Part shown: positions 1-24,037 of the stretch, one piece after another
Position numbering within the stretch: position 1 is the first letter of the stretch
How the letters are laid out: every line of letters starts with the position of its first letter
IMG/VR virus record: IMGVR_UViG_3300031975_000612
Coordinates: 1-24,412 of that record
DNA: 24,412 nt
Source: a virus
Strand: one strand, 5' to 3'
The notes under the pieces: model-generated
Seen by the model: the letters and a program-made list of their open reading frames with translations, nothing else
Told to the model about the DNA's origin: nothing
The model's database searches: none
Position numbers and translations under genes: made by a program

Positions 1-1
1 A

Positions 2-3000: not shown

Positions 3001-4303
3001 ATCGTTTGCATTTATGTATTACTTCTTAAAGAGTGGAAAACGAGATAAAGAAGTTGGTAAAAAACAAATGATAGAAGAAGCAGGTGAATTAAGTAATAAT
3101 CTAATGGTTGAATATGATTATAAGAATCGTGCATTTTTATATGGCAATAAAGGTTTAGGTGCTTTAGGATCATTTATTGGATTATTTAAAACATTTCAAC
3201 ATAACTATTATGGTAAAACTGCAGAGTATGTAAGAACTTGGGCAAGAAATGGATTTAAAAAAGGTGCAGAACCTTTACTATTTCATATATACTCACAGAT
3301 ATTTACCGCTGGTTTATTTGGTTTGATGGCTATTGAACAAGCTGATGCCTTAGTAGATTGGATGAATGGTGTACTTTCAAGTTATGGTAAAGAACCCATG
3401 TTTACAACACCAAGTGATTTAATTTTAGTTTCAGATTTACCTACATCTGCAAAATTTGGATTACCTTCTGCTGCAATGGGAGGAGATATGTCATCTACAT
3501 TAGCTGCTCCTGGTATGGGATTGGCTGATATATTTAGTTTTCCGTCTATGGATTATCTATTTGGTTTAATGAATAGTAACAATTCAGGTATAGTTGGTGA
3601 AGGATTTAATTTTATAGGCAAGACTGTGGCTGGTTCTATGACTGATGCAGACGTATATAAATTTTTAAAAGTCACTGCACCTCCAGTATTACAAGGTGAG
3701 ATCGATAGACGTTGGGGAGTAAACGTAACACAAGAAGGCGACCTTGTTCCAAAACCAGCTATATCTTTATTTGGTAAAGAGGGTATATTTAATCCATGGA
3801 GAGAAGATCCAAGAGCAACTGTTCATGATGATGTATCTAACGTATTCTATGAAAAAGTAAAAGATAAGTATGTTATTAGAGATCCATATAAAGGAATGCG
3901 TGGTAAAATTAAAAGAGATGCAGAAGGATTTTTATACAAATATTTATCTGGTAAAAGTTTTGAAGAGAGTTTAGTATTAAAGGCTATTTATGCTAACAAT
4001 AAAATAAGTAGAAATATTAAAACTAAAAAAGAAGCTATGGTTGTAGGCGCATCTTTAGAATTACTTAACCAAAGATATACTACAGCAATGTTTTATGTTG
4101 AGGCTTTGATTGCTCAAGGTTATACATATGATGAAGCTATGAAAAAAATATTTAATAGAATGGAAATGATGAACAATACAGTTATTGATAGAATTAAAGG
4201 ACTGGATAAACCATCAAAAATGAAACAAAGCAGTTTCTTATTGGATGTACTACACAATAATAGATTAGATGATAGCTACATTCCAGGATCTGCATATGAT
4301 TAA
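2..4303 (+). CDS. Giant virion-associated protein, 5' end outside window
   Basis: The reading frame is already open at base 2, so at least 1433 residues are present and the true start lies upstream. The ATG at 65 is internal, not preceded by a ribosome binding site, and should not be taken as the start. The N-terminal part is very rich in Lys and Glu with long predicted helices (about residues 20-220). The C-terminal third has a hydrophobic stretch near residue 1095 (numbering from base 2), around the motif LLFHIYSQIFTAGLFGLMA. Very long proteins of this kind next to lysis genes in podophages are usually internal virion or ejection proteins, or carry 'large polyvalent protein' domains. The position just before a membrane/lysis cassette fits an internal virion role. 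No catalytic motif was recognised, so the specific role is inferred from size and context. Confidence 0.75.
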   Translation, partial: GASSAGIHGGEFDDVVSGAIVMGAFGVPWLSKGLEATGFRQRVDPNVAALEKMGDKIIEIRKGSEEIANTIQRTDLHKQIDGITDFTIDKKASGFVRETKREVLEIDPRVQEKRKSISSDYSERGNLEKLIPTKKTKRQIEKGQDVITFKRQTAESKEYNQPIDRVKPFEDIRETRQDLKLEEQLKLEETAKSEKEKRKPVFEEVLVERDTVFRDGELLDVYVKLDGKGKVIGTADYITRTEGFDPVKTDLYEGLVMKATAESAPTSKTNTVAFAERFGFKIGGDGAVIAKLSDLVKLKEDKGTRIKSTKDWLNKAIVDTTKIKTTLETQLSKRVNDYSKVLDRTTDTANKVFSALLDKDAFKNVGLSQEKSGIEVDHLIYSYKMDGSKSRKKGKDGRPQEKDINEKNVSGVFKMLNDGLRFTETYINPPKMIGGIESSRLIKAYVSALEKMNYETQALINLVDYKKRVVTEKGDVFDQKYIFEEGAGVKGIRSVVSTALNDVVVQRGLDGAMTKFEALIQRGGKEGINSALKIMRARIDRDNIMYDSAIKNVTGKDRTSAKIEKEYLSKNSDGTFKYQMTYERMQKEFKLTKEEIDIIKLMDQGLYLKALIYNNAVGKFKSQDSKPIQIRPNYDPRSWFGLERAFIKAKEKTTLESGQIMNKGDTVAVIPGHTRPELNRFMKVFLQRNPEFADTSKFSVNKFRKNEYGERTGQPLIDAFLTTHEYHKLLPADVVSKIRKVESEVRAKNRFFVAPVQRKGVRGAAGEQPGMEGLQNYIRAHKDYGRGAIRAAKGMEFRHNWEIHLNSEIGQRWRKDFPNQMKVIEMYLDNALGRNDAAVTKVINKTVDVIGENFRNMVGNVPLLNKLPDAILTANKITLYSKLLFWNVRFMSAQVVQPWQVVIPKLEQLKVDYNIKGSTSEALARGSYEIFFRSDKEFVKALGVAVERGVIDQKFLKEFNDYIQSGGSVRTPGQRKIETMLDATSGKTASGALERFSRLQSFAFMYYFLKSGKRDKEVGKKQMIEEAGELSNNLMVEYDYKNRAFLYGNKGLGALGSFIGLFKTFQHNYYGKTAEYVRTWARNGFKKGAEPLLFHIYSQIFTAGLFGLMAIEQADALVDWMNGVLSSYGKEPMFTTPSDLILVSDLPTSAKFGLPSAAMGGDMSSTLAAPGMGLADIFSFPSMDYLFGLMNSNNSGIVGEGFNFIGKTVAGSMTDADVYKFLKVTAPPVLQGEIDRRWGVNVTQEGDLVPKPAISLFGKEGIFNPWREDPRATVHDDVSNVFYEKVKDKYVIRDPYKGMRGKIKRDAEGFLYKYLSGKSFEESLVLKAIYANNKISRNIKTKKEAMVVGASLELLNQRYTTAMFYVEALIAQGYTYDEAMKKIFNRMEMMNNTVIDRIKGLDKPSKMKQSSFLLDVLHNNRLDDSYIPGSAYD

Positions 4304-4314
4304 AGGAGATAAAA

Positions 4315-4746
4315 ATGCCATTTGAAATGATAACCATGCTAGGGTCTACCGTACTTGGTGGCATCATGAGTATATGGTCACAAAGCATAAAAGCAAAACA
4401 AGCAGAACAAAAGATGTTATTGCAACGAGCTGAAGTACAGACTGCAGCTTTTAAAGAAGCAAGAGAATATGAGAACGTAGGATTTCAGTGGACTAGAAGG
4501 ATCATAGCATTAACTGCTATATTCGCTATTGTAGTTCTACCTAAGATACTACCATTAATTAGTCCTGATGCTCATGTTATTGTAGGATATACAGAATGGA
4601 AGCCAGGCTTCTTATTCTTTGAAGGTAAAGATGTAATGCAGTGGGTGCCTATGGCGCATAAAGGTATAGTGATTACCCCACTAGATACTAACTTAGTTGC
4701 GGCTATTATAGGCCTATACTTTGGAGGATCGCTAGTTAAAAAATAA
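4315..4746 (+). CDS. Three-segment membrane protein, holin candidate
   Basis: A 143-residue protein with three hydrophobic stretches, about residues 5-22, 62-81 and 124-139. A charged helical Lys/Gln/Glu-rich segment (23-55) lies between the first two. Number and spacing resemble three-span holins such as those of gene transfer agents and some marine phages, but I see no decisive motif. A strong ribosome binding site (AAAGGAGA) precedes the ATG, directly after the giant virion gene, and the stop overlaps the next start by one base (TAATG). Position in a late cassette with secreted proteins and a lysozyme-domain protein supports a role in lysis or envelope passage. It could instead be a membrane protein used during DNA ejection. 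Confidence 0.6.
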   Translation: MPFEMITMLGSTVLGGIMSIWSQSIKAKQAEQKMLLQRAEVQTAAFKEAREYENVGFQWTRRIIALTAIFAIVVLPKILPLISPDAHVIVGYTEWKPGFLFFEGKDVMQWVPMAHKGIVITPLDTNLVAAIIGLYFGGSLVKK

Positions 4747-4961
4747 TGTATTGGGTAATTACGGTAATGCTAATGTTTCATGGTACAGATGTACTAGTGG
4801 AGAGAGAATATAAACTTAAACAGTTTAATGACGATTGGAGTTGTCATGAATATATTCACGAGAATAAAATTGATCTGTTAAAACAACATGTTCTTGACTA
4901 CCCTAACCAATTAAAAAGTTTTGAATTTTATTGCGAAAGCAGATACGGAGAAGAAGTATGA
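4746..4961 (+). CDS. Small protein with N-terminal hydrophobic anchor, unknown function
   Basis: A 71-residue protein. Residues 1-18 (MYWVITVMLMFHGTDVLV) are hydrophobic and look like a signal anchor. The rest is polar with two cysteines, in DDWSCHEYI and FEFYCESRY, which could pair in the periplasm. The start shares one base with the preceding stop and the stop shares four bases with the next start (ATGA), so it is probably translated by coupling. Similar short proteins with a tryptophan-rich anchor and a closing FEFYCE-like segment occur in marine phage genomes as far as I recall. Function unknown. Confidence 0.75.
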   Translation: MYWVITVMLMFHGTDVLVEREYKLKQFNDDWSCHEYIHENKIDLLKQHVLDYPNQLKSFEFYCESRYGEEV

Positions 4962-5686
4962 TAAGAAGTATAGGCATAGCTGTAATAATTACAGTATGTA
5001 TGTTGTGGGCCTTTAGCGCATTAATGGATTCTGCTATGGCAGACGTAACTGGTGCTGGTAGTACCACAAATGATCAGGTAACTTCTGGATCATCATCAAG
5101 TAATACGGCTATAACAGGAGGATATCACAGTGAAGCAACAACAAACTATCAATCAGGATCTTCTCAAAATACAACCACAACCAACACAACCAACAACAAT
5201 AACAACTCCTATACAGGAGACACTAGAACTGTGCCTTCAGCATCTGCTCCTGGCATCTCTGCTATGTCTCAAGATCTGTGTACTGTTGGCGTTGGTATAG
5301 GAATACAAAAGCCACTTATAGGCGGCAGTATTGGTATTACTAAACGTGATATGAATTGTGAACGTATGAAACTGGCTAAACTTCTTTTTGATTTTAATAT
5401 GAAGGTTAGTGCTGTTGCTATATTATGTCAAGATGCAAGAGTATTTCAAAGCATGGTCATGGCAGGCACACCTTGTCCGTTCCAAGGAAAGATAGGTGAT
5501 GAAGCTCTAGCTGAATGGAATAAATATGATCAGCAAAGACCAGACTACGAAGAATATACTAAGGCTCTTAATTATATGCAAAGAGTTGATAATAAAATTG
5601 CAATAGAATTAGAACAAGAGGCTAACCCAGATGAACAAATTATTACTGACGGTAACGGCAATCGTATTAAACTCGGTAACGATTAG
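4958..5686 (+). CDS. Secreted Ser/Thr/Asn-rich protein, unknown function
   Basis: A 242-residue protein. I chose the ATG at 4958 over an in-frame TTG at 4931 because it makes an ATGA overlap with the preceding gene, has a GGAG about seven bases upstream, and starts a clean signal peptide: Met-Ile-Arg, a hydrophobic core, then a likely cleavage after AMA before Asp. After cleavage comes a low-complexity Ser/Thr/Asn/Gly region (about residues 33-85), including a run of Thr and Asn. A more ordered Cys-containing domain (about 100-190) with four cysteines and a charged helical tail follow. Export to the periplasm is likely; the role is unknown. The last 56 bases overlap the next gene in another frame. 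Confidence 0.72.
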   Translation: MIRSIGIAVIITVCMLWAFSALMDSAMADVTGAGSTTNDQVTSGSSSSNTAITGGYHSEATTNYQSGSSQNTTTTNTTNNNNNSYTGDTRTVPSASAPGISAMSQDLCTVGVGIGIQKPLIGGSIGITKRDMNCERMKLAKLLFDFNMKVSAVAILCQDARVFQSMVMAGTPCPFQGKIGDEALAEWNKYDQQRPDYEEYTKALNYMQRVDNKIAIELEQEANPDEQIITDGNGNRIKLGND

Positions 5687-7457
5687 TGCGGATACTGTTG
5701 TAGTCATACCTGACACGCCCAATGTGGGAGATTTTACTACTGTTACAACTGTGACAACAGGTAATCCTGTTACTAGTAATAACTTGATAAGCCAAGATTT
5801 TGCTGATGGTACTTGGAATGGTACTATGTTTCCAGATAATTCTGATCTCAATCACTCAACTTGGTTAACTGGTAAAGAGGGTAAGTATGCAGAAACTTCA
5901 ATAGACTCAGAAGATTATGTTTCACTAGAAGAACTAAAACTAGGTTTTACTTCAAACTTTATGGCTAATATCAGGTGGTGGAATCAGGTTGAATCTACTG
6001 TTACCATGACACAATCTATTAGTAATGGTATCGACACCACAACACAAAGCACAACTTTTGAAGATACTACAAACTCTAGCTATCAGGTAAATCCATATGG
6101 TAATACTTTAGTAGTTAATCCTGATGCCAATATGACACACGGCACGGCAACCTATAGATTTGATTTTGATATTATAAACAACAATCAAGCAGGTTATAAT
6201 GGAGGGCATGCGGGCGTGGATGTGCGAGATCCATCTGCCAGGATAGACTATACCGCTTTATCTAGTACTACTATAAGTGAGATAACATATTGTTGGCAAC
6301 AGACACCGCCAACGTGTCCAGGTCAGGAAGAGATAGAAGATGTTCAGGATATTATTGAAGAGATAGATACTATTATAGTTGACTTTGAAGTGCCAGAAGA
6401 TACATTTTTACCTGAGTATGTGGAGATAGACTATGAGTTTAATAATATCTTTGAAGATGAAATTATAATAGAAGAAGATACATTTGAAATTTTAGCACTT
6501 GATAAATTTTTTTTTGAAGAGGATTACTTTCAAACTGACTATTACGAAGAGCCTGAATTGGAAGTCTTTTTTCCAGAAGATATTATGTTGGTAGAAGAAA
6601 TAGAAATGTTTGATGCGCTACCACCAATAGAAATGTTTGAAGAAATGCCAGTAATTGAAGAGATATATGAGGCAGTGCCTGAAACAATGTTTGTAGAAGA
6701 ATTTACAGACGAAATGCAAGAGGAGTTTATAGATGAAGTTGAAGAATATTTTGAAGAGCCTATGGAAGAAATTGCCATGGTTGAAGAAGAAGTTGTGCCT
6801 ATGCAAGAAGAACCCAGTATGCCAGTGCAAGAAACAATCCAAGAAGAAGTCGTACAAGAAGAAAGTATCCAAGAAGAGGTTATCGAAGAAGAACCAACAG
6901 AAGAGATAGCAAGTGAAATTGAAGAGCAACCCAGTAGCGAAGAGCCTACTGCAAACGAACCAGAACCAACAACAGAAGTTGCCGAACAAGAAGAAGTTAT
7001 CGAGGAGCCAATTGAAGAAGGACCTACAGAAGTTGCAGAAGAGCCAGGAACAGAACCTAAAGGAGACGTGGAAGTTGATCTAGATATTAAGGTTGCAAAG
7101 ATTGAACAGGCTATACAAAGTAAAATAAAAAATGTTGCACAACAAATAGATGCAACACTAACGGTTATAAATGAAGTGGTCAGTAGAGAAATGATATCTC
7201 AAGAACCTGATATGTCATCTTACTTTAATACTAATTTGGCATTGTTTGATACTAGGCAATTGCCATCAGGCAATCAAGATTTTTTTCTACAAGCTAGCCT
7301 TGCTAGCTACAGTAAACCTATTTACGTTGCACAAGTAAGTATAGCAGATACAGATCCTGTAGTGCAATATCAAATTAAAGTAAACAACGCAAAACAAAAA
7401 ACAAATGAAGCATATAAAAAATTAAAGGAGTTATTAAATGCAAGGAATATTCAATAA
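5631..7457 (+). CDS. Exported, extremely Glu-rich protein
   Basis: A 608-residue protein starting with a clear signal peptide (MNKLLLTVTAIVLNSVTISA, cleavage before Asp-Thr). Residues 21-220 are Thr/Asn/Ser-rich and look like a beta-structured exported domain ending in a Cys pair (CWQQTPPTC). From about 225 to 485 the protein is dominated by Glu with irregular EE, EEV and EEP repeats, giving a very large negative charge. A helical C-terminal domain (about 490-608) follows, rich in Gln, Asn and Lys. The start lies 56 bases inside the preceding gene, which is unusual but supported by the signal peptide. The product may act in the periplasm or be packaged for ejection. The plus-strand coding assignment is firm; a long open frame on the opposite strand is only a by-product of the GAA/GAG repeats. 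Confidence 0.75.
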   Translation: MNKLLLTVTAIVLNSVTISADTVVVIPDTPNVGDFTTVTTVTTGNPVTSNNLISQDFADGTWNGTMFPDNSDLNHSTWLTGKEGKYAETSIDSEDYVSLEELKLGFTSNFMANIRWWNQVESTVTMTQSISNGIDTTTQSTTFEDTTNSSYQVNPYGNTLVVNPDANMTHGTATYRFDFDIINNNQAGYNGGHAGVDVRDPSARIDYTALSSTTISEITYCWQQTPPTCPGQEEIEDVQDIIEEIDTIIVDFEVPEDTFLPEYVEIDYEFNNIFEDEIIIEEDTFEILALDKFFFEEDYFQTDYYEEPELEVFFPEDIMLVEEIEMFDALPPIEMFEEMPVIEEIYEAVPETMFVEEFTDEMQEEFIDEVEEYFEEPMEEIAMVEEEVVPMQEEPSMPVQETIQEEVVQEESIQEEVIEEEPTEEIASEIEEQPSSEEPTANEPEPTTEVAEQEEVIEEPIEEGPTEVAEEPGTEPKGDVEVDLDIKVAKIEQAIQSKIKNVAQQIDATLTVINEVVSREMISQEPDMSSYFNTNLALFDTRQLPSGNQDFFLQASLASYSKPIYVAQVSIADTDPVVQYQIKVNNAKQKTNEAYKKLKELLNARNIQ

Positions 7458-7716
7458 ACTAGCTAGTTATGCCGCACTCGCAGGCGTTATTGGAGCCATT
7501 GGTGGAGGCTTTATGGCGTGGGGTGAGTTTAATAATAGGATAGCACAGTTAGAAAATACAGAGTTTGTAATAAATCAAGAAGTAGATTTATCTGATATTA
7601 TAAAACAATTGGAAGCACTGAAAGGTGATATCAAAATTAATGGGGCTGCATTAGAATATCTTGATGCAAAGATAGAAGAACTAAAAGCTATGCAATCAAA
7701 TCCATTACTGAACTAG
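7438..7716 (+). CDS. N-terminally anchored coiled-coil membrane protein
   Basis: A 92-residue protein with one N-terminal membrane segment (about residues 9-28, rich in Ala and Gly) followed by a heptad-like helical region (about 30-85, IKQLEALKGDIK and YLDAKIEELKAMQ). A strong ribosome binding site (AAAGGAG) lies inside the end of the preceding gene, and the two genes overlap by 20 bases. One anchor plus a periplasmic coiled coil is the shape of an inner-membrane spanin, and the neighbours suit a lysis role. No lipobox-containing outer spanin was found next to it, so the identification stays open. Confidence 0.65.
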   Translation: MQGIFNKLASYAALAGVIGAIGGGFMAWGEFNNRIAQLENTEFVINQEVDLSDIIKQLEALKGDIKINGAALEYLDAKIEELKAMQSNPLLN

Positions 7717-7724
7717 GAGCAAAC

Positions 7725-8942
7725 ATGGTAGACACATTAGCACCAAAAAGAATATTTACTCAAAGAGATTTAGATAAAAGTTTAGTACAGCCAACGCCTG
7801 TTGGTCAAAGTATTATGGCACCTGCATCTAATGTACTTGATACGACACCTGATGTTAGCACACAAAAAAGTTTAACGGATACTCCACAACCAGATTATGT
7901 TGTAGACAAAAATCAAGTATTTAATATGATGCAAAATTTACAGAAAGCATCAAGATCTAGAGTTGCTGAAACTAGAGACACAGTTAAATCATCTGAAGAA
8001 ACTACAAAAGAAAAACAAACAGGCATGCGTACTGAAAGACAAGAGACACCTCAAAGTGGTAGTTTGGTAATGAGACCTGTCGAGTATGCAGCTGATGGTG
8101 TGAAAGATAAAGAAGTAAGTGGCCCAATACTTGTTGGAGAAAAAGGTGCTGAACTTGTAGTGCCAACTGGAGATGGTAAAGTTAGTATACTAGATGCTAA
8201 GACTACTAGTGGATTGATGATGCCTATGAAAAAAGCTGAAAAAGGAATGGATGATATTAATATAGCTGGTGCTATGAAATCAGATGATGCATACACAGAT
8301 TTTAATATTACAAATTTTTTACTTAAAGATAGAGAAAGTGATGCTCAAGAAAATTTAGAAAAGTTTGTAGATGTTGTGCATAATATAGAAAGTAGCAGGG
8401 GTAAAAATTTAAATAATAAATCTTCAGCTGCTGGAGATTTTCAATTTAAAACTCTAGTGGATCCTGATGATCCTACATCAACAAAAGGATCAGCCTTTAT
8501 GACTGGATTACAAAGAGTAGAAAATTTTTATAAGGCAAACAATCAAACTGTTCCTTACTGGGTACAAGAGGCAAGACAACACAACGATCCAAATAAATTA
8601 AGTTATAAGGAACAAGAAGAATTATTTTTAGTTAACTTACAACAACAAAAAGGCACTGATGATTTGATTAATAAAATGTTAGAGGGTGACATAGAAGCTT
8701 CAAAACAATTATACGGACAATTTCATCACACTAAACCTGAAGTTTTAGGTAATCCAAGAGTACAAGATATATTTGATCGTGCATATTTTGATACTAAAAA
8801 AGGTGCAAGAAAATTTACTGATAGATCTTTAATGTCCATGTTACCAGAAGGAATAACCAATGCGAGAGAGTTTAAACAATATATTGAATCTGGTTCTGGA
8901 GGGTCTATTGGACCTCAAGCTCCTAAAAGAAAAAAACCCTAA
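7725..8942 (+). CDS. Virion protein with lysozyme-like (peptidoglycan hydrolase) domain
   Basis: A 405-residue protein with an AGGAG ribosome binding site six bases before the ATG. The N-terminal 110 residues are polar and probably disordered. Residues 130-147 contain VGEKGAELVVP, matching the G-E-x-G-x-E-x-V-x-P motif common near the ends of tape measure and related tail proteins. Residues 210-370 resemble a lysozyme/transglycosylase fold: a candidate catalytic Glu222 in NIESSRGKN, then AAGDFQFK (237-242), like the E-S-x-G...G-x-x-Q pattern of lytic transglycosylases. It probably opens the cell wall locally during DNA entry. It is the last gene of the rightward block and its stop overlaps the stop of the converging gene. 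Confidence 0.65.
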   Translation: MVDTLAPKRIFTQRDLDKSLVQPTPVGQSIMAPASNVLDTTPDVSTQKSLTDTPQPDYVVDKNQVFNMMQNLQKASRSRVAETRDTVKSSEETTKEKQTGMRTERQETPQSGSLVMRPVEYAADGVKDKEVSGPILVGEKGAELVVPTGDGKVSILDAKTTSGLMMPMKKAEKGMDDINIAGAMKSDDAYTDFNITNFLLKDRESDAQENLEKFVDVVHNIESSRGKNLNNKSSAAGDFQFKTLVDPDDPTSTKGSAFMTGLQRVENFYKANNQTVPYWVQEARQHNDPNKLSYKEQEELFLVNLQQQKGTDDLINKMLEGDIEASKQLYGQFHHTKPEVLGNPRVQDIFDRAYFDTKKGARKFTDRSLMSMLPEGITNAREFKQYIESGSGGSIGPQAPKRKKP

Positions 8943-13684: not shown

Positions 13685-13764
13685 TAGATAATATGACCTA
13701 ATATTATTATATAAAGTATTACGCCAGCCATAGCTAAATTAAACCAAAATTCAAATAAATTCAC
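13681..13764 (-). CDS. 27-residue membrane microprotein
   Basis: A GTG-initiated frame of 27 residues whose GTGA overlaps the DNA polymerase stop codon. It begins MNLFEFWFNLAMAG and continues with a hydrophobic run of Val, Leu and Ile to the end, so nearly the whole product would be one membrane span. A purine-rich GGGTGG lies about four bases upstream. Similar microproteins are abundant in the 22872-24002 operon, which makes this one more credible. Function unknown; it could also be a chance frame, since the region is only 115 bases between two real genes. Confidence 0.45.
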   Translation of the reverse strand: MNLFEFWFNLAMAGVILYIIILGHIIY

Positions 13765-15824
13765 ATTACCACCCTTTCTTTTTTTAAGGAAACTTCATTC
13801 ATTTCTAACCAATTATCGCCTATCTTCAGCTCCGTGTCAAGTGGTACATTGAACTCAACTTTATAAAAGTCATACAAAGAATCAATAACATTTCTAGTTG
13901 CTTTGTCTAGTAGATCCGTCATTAATTCTATCTCATTTGGGTGCGCATCTACAACTATGGAATCGTGCACAGTATTTATTAATAAACTTTTTACACCCTT
14001 ATCTCTCATCATTTTGTAAGCATTGATACATGCTATGGGTACTATATCAGCAGTTGCAAAACCTTGAACTGGATAGTTCTTTATCTGTGTGGAATAACTA
14101 GAGCCACCCCATGCCTGTCTTTGTGCATACGGAAATGAATACTCACGGCCTGATGGTAGCTTTACTTTCTTAAACTCTATAGCTGTACTTTGTAAAGTCT
14201 CATGCCACTTTGCTATGTCTTTGTACTTCTCAAGAAATGCTTTGTAGTATCTTTTCTCACTATCACTACCTGACATGCCACCATACAAAGGTTTGAATGT
14301 ATGTGCTTTTGCATCTTGCCTACTCACTCCAATAGTATCTGCGGTAAACTGATGTACATCTACACCATCATCTATATCTTTCATGCCCTGCTTATCCTGT
14401 GCTAAGAATACAGCAGTCCTAAATTCTAATTGTGAAAAATCTATCTCCATAATTTTACCACCCTTAAACCTGGAAGATATAACTTTACGAATAGGAAAAG
14501 TATTACCTCTTGGTTGGTTCTGAAAGTTGGGATCACGACTTGATAGTCTTGCTGTAGCTGTAACACACTGCATAAACTTAGGATGCAATACGCTATCCTC
14601 ATTTACATGATCTCTTATGCCATTTACAAATGTATTTAGATATGTATCTATGGCATTGTATCTGATAATTAAATCAACAAACTCTTTCATATCTCCTTGC
14701 GCCCTCATAGATAACTTCTTCAGTGTATCTCTGTCTGTTTTAAAGCCACCCTCTGCTACCTCTGAGACACCAACAGGCATCTGATTAAAACCTGCAGTTC
14801 TGTTAAGCTGTAAATAAATTACTCCTTCTCCGTTGCAATGAGGGCACTTTGTAAGATTCTTAAATGGTTCTCCATTAACTTTAAATCTTCTAATTAAACC
14901 TTTACCTTCACAGTGACTGCACTGTGCTGCTAATGTCTGCTTAATTGTTTTTGTGTTTAATGCTACTAAATCTCTAAACTTAGACTTTGATAGTGTGGGT
15001 CTGCGTTTCTTTCTCTTGGTAAATTTATCTATACCTATGTTAAATGTCTCTGCCCACTTTTTTTTATCTATAACTTTTCTAGAGTAGATCAGCCAAGATA
15101 ATTGCTCTGTGCTAGCAGGATTGATAGGTGTATCTCCCATCTTCTCTCTTATAATCTTTTTTATTTCCTGTGCCAGTCTGCCAAACTCTTCTTTAAACTC
15201 TTGCTCCACAGCATTCAATGCATTTAGGTCAATGTTTATGCCATTTATTTCCATATCTGCAAGCACTGGCAGAAATTCATTCATCATTTTGGCTGATTTA
15301 AGTAAGGGTTTGTTACCTTCTTTCTTAAAATCTACCATCTGTGCATCAAACAAAGCTCTTGTAGATCTAACATCTTGCCTACCATACTCTTCAATAATAC
15401 TCACAGGTATATCTTCAAATGATATTTTGCGTTTCATATAGTCATCTACTGCATCCGACTTCTGAGATATGCTCCTGCGTTTACATATATCTTTTAGTGA
15501 TAGTGGCTTTCTTAATCCACGAAGTAATATATACTCACCTATCATGGTGTCGTACAATCTGCCAGTGTATTTGAATCCTGACTCCAGTAGCCACACTAAA
15601 TCAAACTTAATGTTGTGGCCAACAAGTAGTGTAGTCTTATCTAGTATATCTTGAACTGCCTTGTGATTAGATTGTATATCAAAGCTCTCGTGATTGTGAT
15701 TAAAAAAATAATACTCATCATTAACTCCAATACTAACTAGGCAATTGTTAGGATTAAATGGTAGTGGATCTACTTTGCCATCCACGATTTGAAAGCTGGT
15801 CTCTACATCTAATACTGTAATCAT
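13761..15824 (-). CDS. Family A DNA polymerase with DnaJ-type zinc insert
   Basis: A 687-residue replicative polymerase. The 3'-5' exonuclease domain shows Asp6 and Glu8 (VLDVETS), HNIKFD (70-75) and YGRQD (147-151). The polymerase shows TARLSSRDPNFQNQPR (424-439), motif A with Asp462 (DFSQLEFR), motif B with Arg502, Lys506, Phe510, Tyr514 in exact four-residue spacing, and motif C VHDS (His620, Asp621). Between the halves sit two CxxCxGxG motifs (302-309 and 327-334), the zinc-binding element of the DnaJ central domain, as described for HMO-2011-type phages. Phe510 aligns with E. coli Phe762, a state usually linked to lytic phages. The gene follows the helicase with an ATGA overlap. Confidence 0.95.
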   Translation of the reverse strand: MITVLDVETSFQIVDGKVDPLPFNPNNCLVSIGVNDEYYFFNHNHESFDIQSNHKAVQDILDKTTLLVGHNIKFDLVWLLESGFKYTGRLYDTMIGEYILLRGLRKPLSLKDICKRRSISQKSDAVDDYMKRKISFEDIPVSIIEEYGRQDVRSTRALFDAQMVDFKKEGNKPLLKSAKMMNEFLPVLADMEINGINIDLNALNAVEQEFKEEFGRLAQEIKKIIREKMGDTPINPASTEQLSWLIYSRKVIDKKKWAETFNIGIDKFTKRKKRRPTLSKSKFRDLVALNTKTIKQTLAAQCSHCEGKGLIRRFKVNGEPFKNLTKCPHCNGEGVIYLQLNRTAGFNQMPVGVSEVAEGGFKTDRDTLKKLSMRAQGDMKEFVDLIIRYNAIDTYLNTFVNGIRDHVNEDSVLHPKFMQCVTATARLSSRDPNFQNQPRGNTFPIRKVISSRFKGGKIMEIDFSQLEFRTAVFLAQDKQGMKDIDDGVDVHQFTADTIGVSRQDAKAHTFKPLYGGMSGSDSEKRYYKAFLEKYKDIAKWHETLQSTAIEFKKVKLPSGREYSFPYAQRQAWGGSSYSTQIKNYPVQGFATADIVPIACINAYKMMRDKGVKSLLINTVHDSIVVDAHPNEIELMTDLLDKATRNVIDSLYDFYKVEFNVPLDTELKIGDNWLEMNEVSLKKERVVM

Positions 15825-18872: not shown

Positions 18873-19549
18873 TGCGTCTTAAATATAACTGATTGCTTCT
18901 TCATTGACCAGCACAGACCGCAATCGGCACAGCTCTTAGCCTTGCCTGTCTGCTCTGGGCATATCACACCTTTGTCTGCTATCTCTTCTGAGTTAGCTGA
19001 TAATATATCTCTGGTGTAATCTGAAAATCGTACTGAGAATCTATCCCATTGTGCTGTGCGTATTCTTTTGATTTCATCTCCTATGTCTGTGCCTGGGTGC
19101 CAATGTGTATATCCCCAGATGGCAAGACCTGGAAACTTAGCAAGACATCTCTCCCAGAACTGCACATAATCTACTGAATAGAAATCTCCAAGCACATGAA
19201 GTCTTACAAGAAACTTCTCATGCTTCTTCTGTATCTCTGTGAGGTCTGCGTATAGTTTGTGCGTCAGTCCTTTGCCATGTGATATCCTGTGTGCGAATGG
19301 CATATTGTTGCCATAGCAATCATCCCAATGCCCACAAGTACGAGGGCATGTAGCTCTCTCCTCTAGGGTAAGAGTAAAGATAGGTCTGTCTTTGTGCATA
19401 CCCTTGCTGACTTTCTTGCCTAACTTCTTGTTGAGGACTGGCTTCAAAGCCTTGAAAGGATAGAACTCTACTACCTTGATTGTCTTTGTGTATATCGTAT
19501 GGCCACTACTAATCTTATCTAGTGACGCTTGTGAATAATTTTTTTTCAT
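18869..19549 (-). CDS. Gp88-like Cys-rich phage protein
   Basis: A 226-residue protein matching the Gp88 family of phages. It has TCPRTCGHWDDCYGNN (Cys68, Cys72, Cys78), then VRLHVLGDFYSVDYVQFW (115-132), an AIWGYTHW strand (143-150), and a C-terminal cysteine set (Cys197, Cys207, Cys210, Cys213). The cysteines suggest a bound metal or Fe-S cluster. The catalytic role of the family is not established. The ATG overlaps the stop of the preceding gene (ATGA). A TTGACA in that gene 30 bases upstream may be chance. Confidence 0.72.
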   Translation of the reverse strand: MKKNYSQASLDKISSGHTIYTKTIKVVEFYPFKALKPVLNKKLGKKVSKGMHKDRPIFTLTLEERATCPRTCGHWDDCYGNNMPFAHRISHGKGLTHKLYADLTEIQKKHEKFLVRLHVLGDFYSVDYVQFWERCLAKFPGLAIWGYTHWHPGTDIGDEIKRIRTAQWDRFSVRFSDYTRDILSANSEEIADKGVICPEQTGKAKSCADCGLCWSMKKQSVIFKTH

Positions 19550-20070
19550 ATACTTATAGTAGGAGATTCGCTAGTCTGTGTCAACCACCAAGCAGGTGCA
19601 GGTACACCTTTACTCCAAACTGCAAAGTATCTCTTATCTGCCATGTAATAGTTTCTGTATGCTTGAACATAGTCATCACACTTGTATTCATCTGGCATAC
19701 ATTGTGGTGGATCTTGAAAGCCATTGTCTGCAAACATTACTGATTCATTTATCTCATCTAAAAGATCACATGCTATAACTTTAATTATACGATTTGATTT
19801 ATGTGCCTTACCAAATCTCTTTGTGTACTGTTGGGATATAGCTACTGCATGATCAAATGCCCATTCAAAATGTGGCTGTGAATCTCCAACCCATCTAGTC
19901 ATGGGGTGATTAGGATATGCTGGTTTGTACAGTATGGTATTCTCTCCTAAGTTTCTTTGGTATGCAGTAGATAACATCTGACAAGTCTCAAGCAACATCT
20001 TGGGTATATGCTTGTCGCATAACATCTCTGCTGACTTCTCTGGTAATCTATCTAAAAAAAATATATTCAT
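19546..20070 (-). CDS. Pyrimidine-dimer-glycosylase-like protein
   Basis: A 174-residue protein. MNIFFLDRLPEKSAEML, DKHIPKMLLETCQMLSTAY, then YPNHPMTRWVGDS, HFEWAFDHAV and RFGKAHKS follow the pattern of phage proteins usually labelled pyrimidine dimer DNA glycosylase (Pyr_excise-like), which would cut UV-damaged DNA. The repair activity is a family-level inference. I chose the ATG at 20070 rather than 20094 because AAAGGAG sits just before it and would otherwise be inside the coding region. A closing motif (YFAVWSKGVPAPAWW) is also family-like. Confidence 0.55.
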   Translation of the reverse strand: MNIFFLDRLPEKSAEMLCDKHIPKMLLETCQMLSTAYQRNLGENTILYKPAYPNHPMTRWVGDSQPHFEWAFDHAVAISQQYTKRFGKAHKSNRIIKVIACDLLDEINESVMFADNGFQDPPQCMPDEYKCDDYVQAYRNYYMADKRYFAVWSKGVPAPAWWLTQTSESPTISI

Positions 20071-20087
20071 TTGTTCTCCTTTTGCTA

Positions 20088-20116
20088 TTGACATTGATTT
20101 GAATCCGTGCTATAAG
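20088..20116 (+). promoter_or_regulatory. Candidate rightward (antisense) promoter
   Basis: TTGACA (20088-20093), a 17-base spacer and TATAAG (20111-20116) on the plus strand, in the gap between two leftward genes. A transcript would run antisense to the zinc-finger genes. A small hairpin (GAACC-TGT-GGTTC, 20117-20129) follows at once. Confidence 0.4.
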
Positions 20117-21323: not shown

Positions 21324-21351
21324 ATTATAAGAATTTATGCCTATATGTCAA
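21324..21351 (-). promoter_or_regulatory. Consensus sigma70 promoter, leftward early
   Basis: TTGACA (21346-21351), 16-base spacer, TATAAT (21324-21329), both boxes perfect. Transcription would begin near 21317 and read into the zinc-ribbon gene and the replication region. Confidence 0.8.
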
Positions 21352-21355
21352 ACAC

Positions 21356-21384
21356 TTGACTCACACACACGAACACCATATACT
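21356..21384 (+). promoter_or_regulatory. Near-consensus sigma70 promoter, rightward early
   Basis: TTGACT (21356-21361), 17-base spacer, TATACT (21379-21384), one mismatch in each box. Its -35 lies four bases from the -35 of the leftward promoter, so GTCAA-4-TTGAC forms an inverted repeat. It drives the 347-residue gene. Confidence 0.75.
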
Positions 21385-21421: not shown

Positions 21422-22465
21422 ATGGCAAAAACACTAATAGATAAGAACGTGAAAGAGAATATCATTCTCCCTCATGCACTAAAAACTATACACAATCTAC
21501 CCAGCGAGTTGAAAGAAGCCTATGACACGGCACAAGCTCAATGGGAGCCTTCGTATAACAAGGCATGGAATGTGGCTAGTAAGTATGTAAGATCACATAC
21601 ACCAATCGAAGAAGTAAATGCTATGCGAGAGATCGCTGACAGAAACAAGTGGAACAACTCTGGGCTACCAGTAAACAAAGTTGCTTCTGATTTAACTATG
21701 GCAGACTTTAAAGACAAAGAGAATGATGGCTTTAAGTCTACTATTGATGGTAGTAGCCGTTATCATGGCAGTCGTGCTATCTTTCATCTCGATCAATGCG
21801 TCACCTTTAATCTTATGACAGAAGATGCAGACGGCATGGATAGAGAAGAGGGTACTGCTCGATTCAATATGTTCCCAACTAGAAGCACCTTTGAGTTAGT
21901 CAATCACGATTATCTAAAAGAGAAAGGTATCGGCATGATCGCTAATGATAGTAGAAGGATCAATCCCGAATATCATACTATGGGTTGGAGTAGGCAACGA
22001 GACTATGAGAATCAAGTTAATACCCATGAGGCTTACAGTAATTGGGTGATTGATAACTTCAATGACAAGGTATGCATCAGGCTAAATGTAGATTGCCACC
22101 AACAAGGCTTGGCAATATATGAAACAGGCGACTTCGAGACTATCAAGCAAGAGCGAATACTCTGTGATAGAATGAAGAACTCATTAATAGATCTACAAGC
22201 AGAGCGTCAAGGCTACTATGATGACGTGCGTGGCGTACTATCTAAGATACGAAGTGTTGAGGGCTTACTTGAATCACCACTTGGTAAGATGATGAAACCT
22301 ATTGAGGCACAGATACGAGGAGCAGGAAACAATACTGCTCTTGCATTGACACCTCAAGCACAGTTCAGAATCAATAAGTTAAACAATGCGTTAGACTCAA
22401 TGTCTGATGTACCACAAGAAGTTCCAAATGTTATTGTCTTACATGGCATGACTGGTACTGCTTAA
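21422..22465 (+). CDS. Monocistronic early protein, unknown function
   Basis: A 347-residue soluble protein I do not recognise. It starts MAKTLIDKNVKENI, is rich in charged residues, and has helical N- and C-terminal parts (about 20-60 and 240-300) around a middle section with many aromatic residues (RAIFHLDQCVTFNL, RFNMFP, HTMGWSRQRDY). No enzyme or zinc motif was found. The ATG at 21422 follows AAAGGAG; the frame stays open upstream, but that part is promoter DNA. A strong promoter 38 bases upstream and a strong terminator immediately after make it a separate, probably highly expressed early unit. Host take-over or DNA coating are possible roles, not shown. Confidence 0.8.
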   Translation: MAKTLIDKNVKENIILPHALKTIHNLPSELKEAYDTAQAQWEPSYNKAWNVASKYVRSHTPIEEVNAMREIADRNKWNNSGLPVNKVASDLTMADFKDKENDGFKSTIDGSSRYHGSRAIFHLDQCVTFNLMTEDADGMDREEGTARFNMFPTRSTFELVNHDYLKEKGIGMIANDSRRINPEYHTMGWSRQRDYENQVNTHEAYSNWVIDNFNDKVCIRLNVDCHQQGLAIYETGDFETIKQERILCDRMKNSLIDLQAERQGYYDDVRGVLSKIRSVEGLLESPLGKMMKPIEAQIRGAGNNTALALTPQAQFRINKLNNALDSMSDVPQEVPNVIVLHGMTGTA

Positions 22466-22485: not shown

Positions 22486-22519
22486 AAAACCCCACTAGTT
22501 AATTCTAGTGGGGTTTTTT
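22486..22519. terminator. Strong intrinsic terminator, possibly bidirectional
   Basis: A 13-base stem (AAAACCCCACTAG, 22486-22498, with CTAGTGGGGTTTT, 22505-22517), six-base loop, then T-run for the rightward gene. On the opposite strand the A-rich flank gives a T-run too, so it could also end the leftward microprotein operon. Confidence 0.88.
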
Positions 22520-22538: not shown

Positions 22539-22787
22539 TTATACTTTTGATTGCATACCCTTGCAGACATCTGCATGACTAACATAAGTATCTATACTTT
22601 CACCTTCGGGTACTACATCCAATCTAGTAAAGATGAAATATTTATCACCAGATTTAGTAATACTACTCAGATCATCTTTAGCTTTTACATAAGCAATACA
22701 CTTAAATCTATCTTCTGAATTAAACACACAAGTATATGTGTCATCTATGTGCGAGTATGTATTTAATCTCATTACTGCGTATACCAT
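22539..22787 (-). CDS. Hypothetical protein, last gene of microprotein operon
   Basis: An 82-residue protein of unknown function (MVYAVMRLNTYSHIDD), probably a small alpha/beta fold with alternating strands (YTCVFNSEDRFKCIAYVKA, KYFIFTRLDVV) and three isolated cysteines. GAGGAGATAAT precedes the ATG. It is separated from the rest of the operon by a hairpin pair (22818-22865), so its expression may be adjusted separately, and it ends just before the terminator at 22486-22519. Confidence 0.68.
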   Translation of the reverse strand: MVYAVMRLNTYSHIDDTYTCVFNSEDRFKCIAYVKAKDDLSSITKSGDKYFIFTRLDVVPEGESIDTYVSHADVCKGMQSKV

Positions 22788-22817
22788 ATTATCTCCTCTC
22801 TCTCCAAATTATTTACA

Positions 22818-22865
22818 CTACCCCTAGAAGTTTGGAGTCACTAGGGGTAGGATTCCGTAAGGAAT
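22818..22865 (-). terminator. Tandem hairpins between microprotein cluster and 82-residue gene
   Basis: CTACCCCTAG (22818-22827) pairs with CTAGGGGTAG (22841-22850) in a perfect 10-base stem, and ATTCC (22852-22856) pairs with GGAAT (22861-22865) around four bases. No T-run follows in the leftward direction, so an attenuator or message-stabilising structure is as likely as a terminator. Confidence 0.5.
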
Positions 22866-22871
22866 ATTTTG

Positions 22872-22925
22872 TTATATAAACCAAACAATAAAACTAATAA
22901 CTATAATTAGTATATCTGTTTCCAT
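22872..22925 (-). CDS. 17-residue membrane microprotein
   Basis: A frame of METDILIIVISFIVWFI, nearly all hydrophobic with an acidic N-terminus. The ribosome binding site TTTGGAGG lies six bases before the ATG, which shares one base with the preceding stop (TAATG). The excellent site and the consistent chain of neighbours support translation despite the size. Function unknown. Confidence 0.5.
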   Translation of the reverse strand: METDILIIVISFIVWFI

Positions 22926-23038
22926 TATGAACCTCCAAACTTAAAAGCTAAGTACAGCACACCGAGAATAATAACGGCAGTTTCAAGTTTCCTAGTCTTT
23001 GGCGGAAACCTAAAACCTTTCCATTTATATACCTTCAT
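22925..23038 (-). CDS. 37-residue membrane microprotein
   Basis: A basic N-terminal half (MKVYKWKGFRFPPKTRK) is followed by one membrane span (AVIILGVLYLAFKF) and a Gly-Gly-Ser end. TTTGGAG precedes the ATG and the start overlaps the preceding stop (ATGA). Positive-inside charge suggests the N-terminus stays in the cytoplasm. Function unknown. Confidence 0.58.
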   Translation of the reverse strand: MKVYKWKGFRFPPKTRKLETAVIILGVLYLAFKFGGS

Positions 23039-23208
23039 ACTCTCTCCAAATTACAGGCTCTGATAAATTTATTTTTATCAAAGTTCCTGTTATCTTCTTT
23101 AAATATGACGCACATTCCATCAGCTATATCTGTTATTGTGAAAAAGCCGTCATTACTTACATACTCTCTTATGAGTTCTGCAAATTTTTCATATTCTTTT
23201 TTACTCAT
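23035..23208 (-). CDS. Small soluble protein in microprotein operon
   Basis: A 57-residue soluble protein (MSKKEYEKFAELIREYV, then FFTITDIADGMCVIFK) with two cysteines and a mixed-charge helical start; no family recognised. It begins with an ATGA overlap with the preceding gene and lacks a strong ribosome binding site of its own (GGCGG), so it probably depends on coupling. Confidence 0.6.
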   Translation of the reverse strand: MSKKEYEKFAELIREYVSNDGFFTITDIADGMCVIFKEDNRNFDKNKFIRACNLERV

Positions 23209-23282
23209 AGCATACCGCCTGTGATTGATATTACAAAGAGCATAACTACTACAGCTATTGTCATTAAAAATAATTCAACCAT
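23205..23282 (-). CDS. 25-residue membrane microprotein
   Basis: A hydrophobic frame (MVELFLMTIAVVVMLFVISI) forming a single membrane span with a short Gly-rich end. It overlaps both neighbours (eight bases upstream, ATGA downstream). Its ribosome binding site (GGTGG) is modest. Function unknown. Confidence 0.5.
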   Translation of the reverse strand: MVELFLMTIAVVVMLFVISITGGML

Positions 23283-23391
23283 AGAACACCACCAATAATC
23301 CACCAATAATGGCAGTAGTAAATACGCAAGTGGCTATTATGAACTTACCAAAGTTAGTAAAGTACGGATTACTTCTTGGTTCTTTTTTCAT
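23275..23391 (-). CDS. 38-residue membrane microprotein
   Basis: A polar, basic N-terminus (MKKEPRSNPYFTNFGK) is followed by a membrane span (FIIATCVFTTAIIGGLLVVF). A strong TTTTGGAGG precedes the ATG, though the start lies 23 bases inside the preceding gene. Function unknown. Confidence 0.6.
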   Translation of the reverse strand: MKKEPRSNPYFTNFGKFIIATCVFTTAIIGGLLVVFYG

Positions 23392-23488
23392 CTTTATCCT
23401 CCAAAAAATTAAGTATAAATAATGCACCTGCTGTCATTAGTCCTACACTAATGAAGCAAACCAATAAGACTTCAACGAATGGATACAT
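23369..23488 (-). CDS. 39-residue membrane microprotein
   Basis: A membrane span (VEVLLVCFISVGLMTAGALF) from the N-terminus, followed by a charged tail (LEDKDEKRTKK). The start shares one base with the stop of the zinc protein gene (TGATG). It has one cysteine in the span. Topology is probably N-out, C-in. Function unknown. Confidence 0.58.
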   Translation of the reverse strand: MYPFVEVLLVCFISVGLMTAGALFILNFLEDKDEKRTKK

Positions 23489-23769
23489 CAATACCCCCTT
23501 CGAAGCTCAGACATAACACCCTCTAGCACTTCGCTAATGTGTAATGTTCTATGCTTTCTCTTTGGGTTATGCACTCTGATCCAACGATCTTCTGCTTGTC
23601 GTTTATCTTCTTCACTAAACTTAGCGTAATGCTCATCAGATAAAACACCCGAACCACCACAAGTGGCACAGGTTTTCATTCCTGTTTCATCTTCAAAAAT
23701 GTTAGTAAAAAATTTATGATACCCATTACCTTGACAGTCAGGGCAAGTGTTTAGTTTTTTATCAGTCAT
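23488..23769 (-). CDS. DnaJ-type zinc protein (two CxxCxGxG motifs)
   Basis: A 93-residue protein with CPDCQGNG (residues 9-16) and CATCGGSG (33-40), the pair that holds one zinc ion in the DnaJ central domain, followed by a charged helical tail without a J-domain. Similar short zinc proteins in phages have no fixed role; they may assist folding or bind a partner through the zinc hairpin. The start overlaps the upstream 15-residue frame (ATGA). It is notable that the phage polymerase carries the same type of motif pair. Confidence 0.8.
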   Translation of the reverse strand: MTDKKLNTCPDCQGNGYHKFFTNIFEDETGMKTCATCGGSGVLSDEHYAKFSEEDKRQAEDRWIRVHNPKRKHRTLHISEVLEGVMSELRRGY

Positions 23770-23813
23770 AGTAATACCACCACGACAAATAATTTTATTA
23801 GTAGTTCACACAT
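23766..23813 (-). CDS. 15-residue hydrophobic leader-like microprotein
   Basis: A frame of MCELLIKLFVVVVLL with an AAAGGAG site seven bases before the ATG and an ATGA overlap with the zinc protein start. It may be a membrane microprotein or act mainly as a leader that couples translation of the following gene. The strong ribosome binding site and overlap support translation. Confidence 0.45.
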   Translation of the reverse strand: MCELLIKLFVVVVLL

Positions 23814-23843
23814 AATAAGACTCCTTTGTTAATGTGTTTGTTA

Positions 23844-23860
23844 ATATACTTACAGTATAT
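23844..23860. repeat. Operator-like inverted repeat over the -10 box
   Basis: ATATACT, three bases, AGTATAT: exact inverse copies covering the -10 of the leftward promoter. A dimeric repressor bound here would block transcription. Confidence 0.5.
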
Positions 23861-23882
23861 CAAAACACACAAGTCAAATCAA
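23854..23882 (-). promoter_or_regulatory. Candidate promoter of the microprotein operon
   Basis: TTGATT (23877-23882), 17-base spacer, TATACT (23854-23859) on the minus strand. The -10 is inside the inverted repeat at 23844-23860, a typical repressor arrangement. Confidence 0.55.
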
Positions 23883-23894
23883 ATGCTTATAAAT

Positions 23895-24002
23895 TTATAG
23901 TATAATATTAACAGCAGGAATACCGACTACAAAAAATAGAATTACATAGTAAAGTATTGTAGCTGTTAAATCATAGTTATGTATTTTCTTTTTTTCTTTC
24001 AT
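23895..24002 (-). CDS. 35-residue membrane microprotein
   Basis: A basic start (MKEKKKIHNYDLTAT) is followed by one membrane span (ILYYVILFFVVGI) and a short hydrophobic end. The ribosome binding site is weak (CAGG). It is the most upstream frame of the leftward cluster, ahead of the second promoter, so it may be expressed separately. Function unknown. Confidence 0.48.
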   Translation of the reverse strand: MKEKKKIHNYDLTATILYYVILFFVVGIPAVNIIL

Positions 24003-24008
24003 GCCTGC

Positions 24009-24037
24009 ATATTATTATTATATATATTAAAAGTCAA
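24009..24037 (-). promoter_or_regulatory. Weak candidate promoter for 35-residue frame
   Basis: TTGACT (24032-24037), 17-base spacer, TAATAT (24009-24014) on the minus strand. The region is so AT-rich that the -10 match carries little weight. Confidence 0.35.

Follow-up and report, generated by a model that had tools for sequence, protein, structure and literature searches.

A conserved, mostly unannotated operon of predicted single-helix microproteins opens the early region in a clade of HMO-2011-type phages

Could a compact run of hydrophobic reading frames of 15 to 39 residues, missed by gene callers, be a genuine set of phage genes, and what might such a set do during infection? The question is raised by a 24,412-base virus record (IMG/VR IMGVR_UViG_3300031975_000612, positions 1-24,412), called the window hereafter. 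HMO-2011-type phages rank among the dominant marine phage groups and are defined by a DNA polymerase with a partial DnaJ domain containing two CXXCXGXG motifs (PMC9038755). The polymerase of the window (13761-15824, minus strand, 687 aa) has such a domain with the motifs CSHCEGKG and CPHCNGEG, and this marker assigns the window, as a fragment, to an HMO-2011-type phage. The closest isolate is Pelagibacter phage HTVC033P, with 63% identity in the polymerase compared with ~42% for HMO-2011, and the likeness to the HTVC033P subgroup extends to the genome layout as well as to the DnaJ-containing polymerase (PMC9038755). The structural genes lie on the plus strand (1-8942) and the replication genes on the minus strand (21273 to 8939). 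Upstream of the latter, the micro-ORFs form a separate minus-strand unit (~24037 to 22486), convergent with a conserved plus-strand gene of 347 aa (21422-22465) that serves as a synteny anchor and has no function assigned. A palindromic intrinsic terminator (22486-22517, minus strand) stands in between and is probably common to both. In a 52-kb relative (G001) the unit is the first part of the rightward replication-side module; a 309-aa gene running leftward and the genes for packaging and structure diverge from it. Profiles from Pfam, PHROGs, NCBIfam and PADLOC assigned no function to the chain's neighbour genes.

The earlier note on this DNA had described, from 23813 to 22872, a leftward chain of six hydrophobic frames together with a 57-residue protein and a DnaJ-type zinc protein, and we found every one of these where it had been placed. 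Read in the direction of transcription on the minus strand, the chain consists of micro-ORF B (23766-23813, 15 aa, hydrophobic, perhaps a coupling leader), a 93-aa protein with Cys pairs (23488-23769), micro-ORF C (23369-23488, 39 aa, a helix and a charged C-terminal tail), micro-ORF E (23275-23391, 38 aa, a basic N-terminus and a helix), micro-ORF F (23205-23282, 25 aa, almost entirely helix), a soluble 57-aa protein of no confident family (23035-23208), micro-ORF G (22925-23038, 37 aa, a strongly basic N-terminus and a helix) and micro-ORF H (22872-22925, 17 aa, hydrophobic). F starts at the ATG at 23282, and an in-frame TTG is found at 23306. The successive junctions overlap by 4, 1, 23, 8, 4, 4 and 1 bases, exactly spanning the claimed range of 1 to 23; the ATGA motifs at 23766-23769, 23205-23208 and 23035-23038 and the one-base overlaps at 23488 and 22925 are likewise present. 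The ribosome site that several frames were said to share was found, as TTTGGAG or TTGGAGG, before the 38-, 37- and 17-aa frames. A seventh hydrophobic frame, the leader A (23895-24002, minus strand, 35 aa, a basic N-terminus and one hydrophobic helix), stands upstream under its own promoter as had been proposed, and a terminal gene of 82 aa (22539-22787, minus strand) lies 3' of the structured RNA that follows H.

We scanned the region with fixed rules, i.e. an ATG start, 15-45 aa, a hydropathy of 2.0 or more in the best stretch of 15 residues and a Shine-Dalgarno match of 4 bases or more at 3-11 nt. The scan returned a chain of six such hydrophobic ORFs in a stretch of 1131 bases. Among 2000 dinucleotide-preserving shuffles of this stretch, 1880 had none, 118 had one and 2 had two. 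The antisense strand of the stretch has zero such ORFs, and the rest of the window never has more than two. With frames of up to 50 aa admitted, the same rules never gave more than two in T7, HTVC010P, HTVC019P and the first 50 kb of T4, nor in CRP-1, CRP-212, CRP-345, HMO-2011 (from 10 kb on) and HTVC033P. The micro-ORF products are shorter than 100 aa and have a membrane segment, as expected of early small membrane proteins, with the segment called by hydropathy only. We consider it quite likely, on this prediction from hydropathy alone, that they are single-span membrane proteins.

Nine further IMG/VR contigs with the unit (L007, L008, L009, L012, L013, L014, L015, L017 and L121) were gathered by using the zinc protein, the 347-aa protein and the polymerase as queries; L008 is identical to L001 and L012 to L002 and L026, and L009 is a near-twin of L010. 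With the window they make ten metagenomic fragments of one clade. They have a common plan: an optional leader with its own promoter (the leader microprotein is in eight of the ten, window included), the promoter P2 of the main operon, an optional B, the protein with two Cys pairs, a variable run of hydrophobic micro-ORFs mixed with small soluble genes, a gap of ~80 bases and a last gene of 57-83 aa, which is missing in L007. Frame B (15-17 aa) occurs in four contigs, namely the window and L012, L013 and L017 with counterparts of 16-17 aa. The variable run differs from contig to contig. C is lacking in L012, where its start is fused to the body of E; in L008 E is directly followed by H; L014, L015 and L121 have a different 38-aa membrane frame; and relatives have either lost the 57-aa soluble protein or carry a replacement. 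The position of the unit is conserved but its content is exchanged, with individual genes gained and lost freely. The earlier note had proposed conserved order as a check, and this holds for the locus and the plan in all ten contigs but not for the micro-ORF content, which is swapped; conserved start/stop overlaps, also proposed, are seen at 35 of 50 junctions in eight contigs. The comparison also supports that the predicted membrane character is kept where the sequence is not. In L007 (4205-4051) the 25-aa microprotein F seems to have been duplicated in tandem, including the ribosome site embedded in it.

A blind scan of ~100 HMO-2011-type loci found clusters of at least three frames only at the unit's locus in L007, L012, L015 and L017 and in the more distant contig L092, which has one such cluster near the front of its early region. 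Fewer frames pass every rule in the remaining contigs, and the six-member chain of the window is extreme rather than typical. HTVC033P itself does not have the exact unit. It has two comparable hydrophobic frames of 25 and 22 aa (L004, 400-477 and 529-597), unannotated and lying in the gap between gp02 and gp03, the second of which is kept in L117; the suspected oversight in annotation is borne out by these frames. A DNA search of a phage collection with the whole region gave no match, and no convincing match was found when the zinc, 57-aa and 37-aa proteins were used as protein queries. Our data indicate that a conserved, mostly unannotated operon of predicted single-helix microproteins heads the early region of this HMO-2011-type clade.

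Are the frames under selection as proteins? In nine pairs of homologous membrane micro-ORFs, the members of each pair taken from different contigs, the differences at the first, second and third codon positions number 85, 46 and 114, and the third-position share was reached by none of 20000 column permutations. Since the changes fall mostly at third codon positions, most of the micro-ORFs appear to be genes. A dN/dS below 1 had been suggested as a further check, and the values are 0.09-0.31 over five micro-ORF families: 0.27 for C and 0.28 for F (both compared with L007), 0.14 for H (with L009), 0.31 for the leader (with its 37% identical L013 homologue) and 0.09 for the 38-aa frame of L014 and L015. 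The pairs were picked by protein resemblance, which biases these values to low dN, and the codon-position test is less exposed to this bias. The larger proteins give 0.11-0.18 for the Cys-pair protein (with L008 and L012) and 0.13 for the terminal gene (with L014). The leader pair L015/L121 has no third-position excess. E and G, respectively 76% and 89% identical in L012, have few base differences between the window and that contig, and B is too short for a substitution test; the case for these three depends on where they lie, on hydropathy and on overlap because the silent changes are too few to judge them singly, and for B it is weak. Stops or frameshifts without constraint on codon positions, which would speak against coding, were not seen in the relatives. 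By this pattern of substitution most of the frames are genuine genes under coding constraint, and the whole is very probably a genuine coding unit.

The main operon is preceded by a sigma-70-type promoter, P2 (TTGATT-17-TATACT, 23854-23882, minus strand). It is at the same place in nine of the ten contigs with 9-11 of the 12 consensus bases and a spacing of 16-17 bases, and its summed score is 91 compared with a mean of 28 and a maximum of 68 in shuffles. The leader has its own promoter P1 (TTGACT-17-TAATAT, 24009-24037, minus strand), which ends 6 nt 5' of the leader ATG. The distance is also 6 nt in L012 and is 9 nt in L017, and a Shine-Dalgarno site is absent from the leader in all three. 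The leader may be read from a leaderless mRNA, because the -10 box stands 6-9 nt before the ATG without such a site; the starts with this apparent layout are at 24002-24037 in the window, 4947 in L012 and 7043 in L017. The leaders of L007, L014, L015 and L121 do have a Shine-Dalgarno site, and a terminator-like hairpin follows the leader in the first three. Within the chain, ribosome sites are encoded by the last codons of the preceding frame, i.e. LED (ttGGAGgat) for E and FGGS (ttGGAGGTtca) for H, and in the F-like frames of L007 and L121 a T-G-G ending (acnGGAGGT) overlaps the ribosome site of the next gene. This layout suggests that the chain is translated with tight coupling. The promoter type and the position of the unit make its early expression likely.

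A predicted structured RNA with two hairpins and a pseudoknot (22802-22865, minus strand) lies between H and the last gene. In the window, hairpin P1 is formed by 22865-22852 and hairpin P2 by 22850-22818, and the loop CTCCAAA (22837-22831) is complementary to TTTGGAG at 22808-22802. After H or its counterpart, all ten contigs have hairpin P1, a hairpin P2 of 9-10 bp and a loop complementary to the bases before the next ribosome site. The loop and its partner are CTCCAAA with TTTGGAG in five contigs, ACTCCT with AGGAGT in L007, and TTACTCCT with AGGAGTAA or AGGAGTAG in the other four. The P2 stem likewise occurs in several variants (CTACCYCTAG, CCAAGTCTAG, GTAGCCCTAG and GCCACCTAG), which differ in sequence and keep the complementarity. 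With the strands set by hand, 99 of 100 cells are paired in the P2 stem and 76 of 80 in the pseudoknot, a result matched by none of 20000 shuffles of the distinct sequences, and both sides have changed in 5 of the 10 stem pairs and 7 of the 8 pseudoknot pairs. On a MAFFT alignment, in which the pseudoknot is misplaced between clades, the covariation score was 0.288; shuffles gave 0.154, and partners that had been slid gave no more than 0.148. We regard the pseudoknot as highly probable on this pairing evidence.

The RNA element is previously uncatalogued and stands outside Rfam. A search of the whole window with Rfam 15 gave no family at or above the gathering threshold, and over the element itself just one sub-threshold match on the opposite strand (E 3.7). 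A covariance model of the element, run over 717 kb and 742 kb (1.46 Mb together), matched at the unit's locus only; the RNA pattern had no match in bacterial genomes, and a blast search against phages gave short chance matches only. No paper in the collection searched names both 'pelagiphage' and 'pseudoknot'.

What might this RNA do? In nine contigs its 3' pseudoknot strand ends 13-16 nt before an ATG, and the ribosome site falls within this interval. The element thus resembles the pseudoknot operator in the mRNA of T4 gene 32, which also stands 5' of the ribosome site of a phage gene (PMC535899), but here it is known from sequence alone, and the downstream gene encodes 57-83 aa with no family recognised by profiles. 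In operators of the gene 32 type the RNA is bound by the product of the gene under its control. Its most likely action would be to set the translation of the last gene via access to the ribosome site, and control of that gene is a reading that we slightly favour. In L007 the terminator comes immediately after the pseudoknot, so that no gene lies between them, and the target may not be the last gene, because the element persists there without that gene. We noted by eye that the ten loop bases CTCCAAACTT (22828-22837, minus strand) could also pair with AAGTTTGGAG (22933-22942), the ribosome site of H; this match did not recur in the relatives and carries no weight here.

The 93-aa protein has two CxxC pairs and matches only a part of the DnaJ zinc domain PF00684, with 24.2 bits against a cut-off of 32.7. 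DnaJ co-chaperones have a J domain and a complete zinc domain, and no J domain was found in this protein. Its structure, predicted with moderate confidence (mean pLDDT 75), consists of a hairpin and helices, with weak fold matches to the DnaJ zinc region (best DnaJA2, E 0.2), UvrA and lambda Q, and it may best be described as a DnaJ-zinc-like ribbon with helices. A search for it in bacterial genomes found none.

Could the micro-ORFs be explained without a set of membrane effectors? The genome is AT-rich, and T-rich sequence tends toward membrane-like frames according to PMC7005711, and hence the frames might be chance or very young products that are translated without function. However the same-dinucleotide shuffles do not yield the chain, the third-position excess and the dN/dS below 1 speak for constraint, and the frames keep the same place in ten contigs. 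We consider chance frames very improbable in general, and the idea is contradicted for A, C, F and H. The hydrophobic segments are consecutive on one strand, as the remains of one decayed multi-span membrane protein would be, but each has its own ATG and most have a ribosome site, the relatives conserve the separate frames and their overlapping starts, and no fused multi-span homologue was seen among them. That explanation is hardly credible and was rejected. The shortest frames, B and H, might instead be translational leaders that deliver ribosomes to the next overlapping start. B stands on a strong AAGGAG site, its end is the start of the zinc protein, and it is too short to show selection; in the six contigs without B the zinc protein itself uses the strong site. 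Yet B is hydrophobic in all four contigs at just 19-47% identity, the changes in H relative to L009 are biased to silent ones, and C, E, F and G are left unexplained. We therefore think it unlikely that B and H serve as leaders and not as functional proteins.

The earlier note had also thought of lysis timing, and some of the microproteins could be a holin, an antiholin or a small single-gene lysis protein. Their size and hydropathy suit pinholin- or antiholin-like proteins, and no holin was recognised by profile anywhere in the window. This role is quite unlikely in our judgement, because the lysis enzyme is encoded at the late end: in G001 an enzyme with PF00959 above the cut-off ends the late operon, far from the unit, and the window homologue of this protein is at 7725-8942, after a 92-aa protein with one hydrophobic segment. 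In HTVC033P and HMO-2011, too, the genes annotated as lysozyme and amidase belong to the late strand, whereas the unit lies at the start of the early region, downstream of host-type promoters, and the replication genes come next on its strand. A canonical phage lysis cassette, in which a membrane gene adjoins an endolysin or spanin gene in the late region, was rejected too, as no lysis gene was recognised in or beside the chain. As a separate observation, the window gene at 7725-8942 and its counterpart in L046 (17449-19125) have a common N-terminal part and different C-terminal parts. A lysis-domain swap is likely, in which the relative has the PF00959 lysozyme domain and the window an unrecognised one.

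We prefer, with a little better than even confidence, to read the locus as an early host-transcribed unit of six or seven single-helix membrane microproteins and a zinc-ribbon protein, closed by the pseudoknot before the last soluble gene, which would serve the phage in take-over and exclusion. The host RNA polymerase would transcribe the unit at once after infection, and coupled translation would yield several single-helix inner-membrane proteins along with the zinc-ribbon protein. The N-termini of A, E and G are basic and the tail of C is rich in lysine; by the positive-inside rule, the topology would be N-in for A, E and G and C-in for C. Each microprotein might bind or perturb one host membrane protein involved in transport, energy, the cell wall or the genome entry of a second phage. 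The unit would then be a cassette shaped by an arms race and serving exclusion and the take-over of the host membrane, and a membrane arms race would suit the rapid exchange of content with hydropathy retained. Exclusion proteins such as Imm, Sp and SieA stop a second phage from entering or injecting. Superinfection exclusion and host take-over are plausible as putative roles; that the microproteins themselves act in one or the other has, in our estimate, somewhat less than an even chance. We speculate, with considerable doubt, that the pseudoknot might represent a new class of phage regulatory RNA that senses the infection state or the product of the last gene, and that the microproteins might form a combinatorial, exchangeable membrane assembly instead of acting as independent effectors, an early module that targets the membrane and is specific to SAR11-type phages.

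Several known systems resemble the unit in part. Gp11 of Staphylococcus phage PhiNM1 is a tiny early membrane protein of 53 aa that binds MurG and DivIC (PMC11237401). It offers a precedent for action on membrane-bound host machinery by a small early membrane protein, but it is one protein with two predicted helices, unlike the chain of single-helix proteins here. The T4 early exclusion and membrane genes imm and sp are also small and act at the envelope in T4, a role that we infer for the frames here; they are longer and dispersed, and the first 50 kb of T4 have no cluster of three. Catalogued phage small-protein genes are similarly short, missed by annotation and in many cases without known function (PMC11323111, a review), whereas here several coupled genes make up one unit, which has a promoter and an RNA element and sits at a single conserved locus. 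The word 'membrane' is absent from the main text of the paper on HMO-2011-type phages (PMC9038755). Most early genes of these phages have no known function, and a compact microprotein unit missed by gene callers points to where take-over functions may lie. It suggests an overlooked layer of host-membrane take-over by abundant ocean phages, to which the pseudoknot adds a clearly covarying regulatory RNA outside Rfam in phages that are genetically hard to study.

Other features of the early region were noticed along the way. The 347-aa gene is on the plus strand within an early region that otherwise runs leftward. A 10/12 promoter for this gene (21356-21384, plus strand) stands back to back with a perfect 12/12 sigma-70-type promoter at the head of the replication genes (21324-21351, minus strand). 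A pyrimidine-dimer glycosylase-like gene, with PF03013 above the cut-off, is also found in the early region at 19546-20094.
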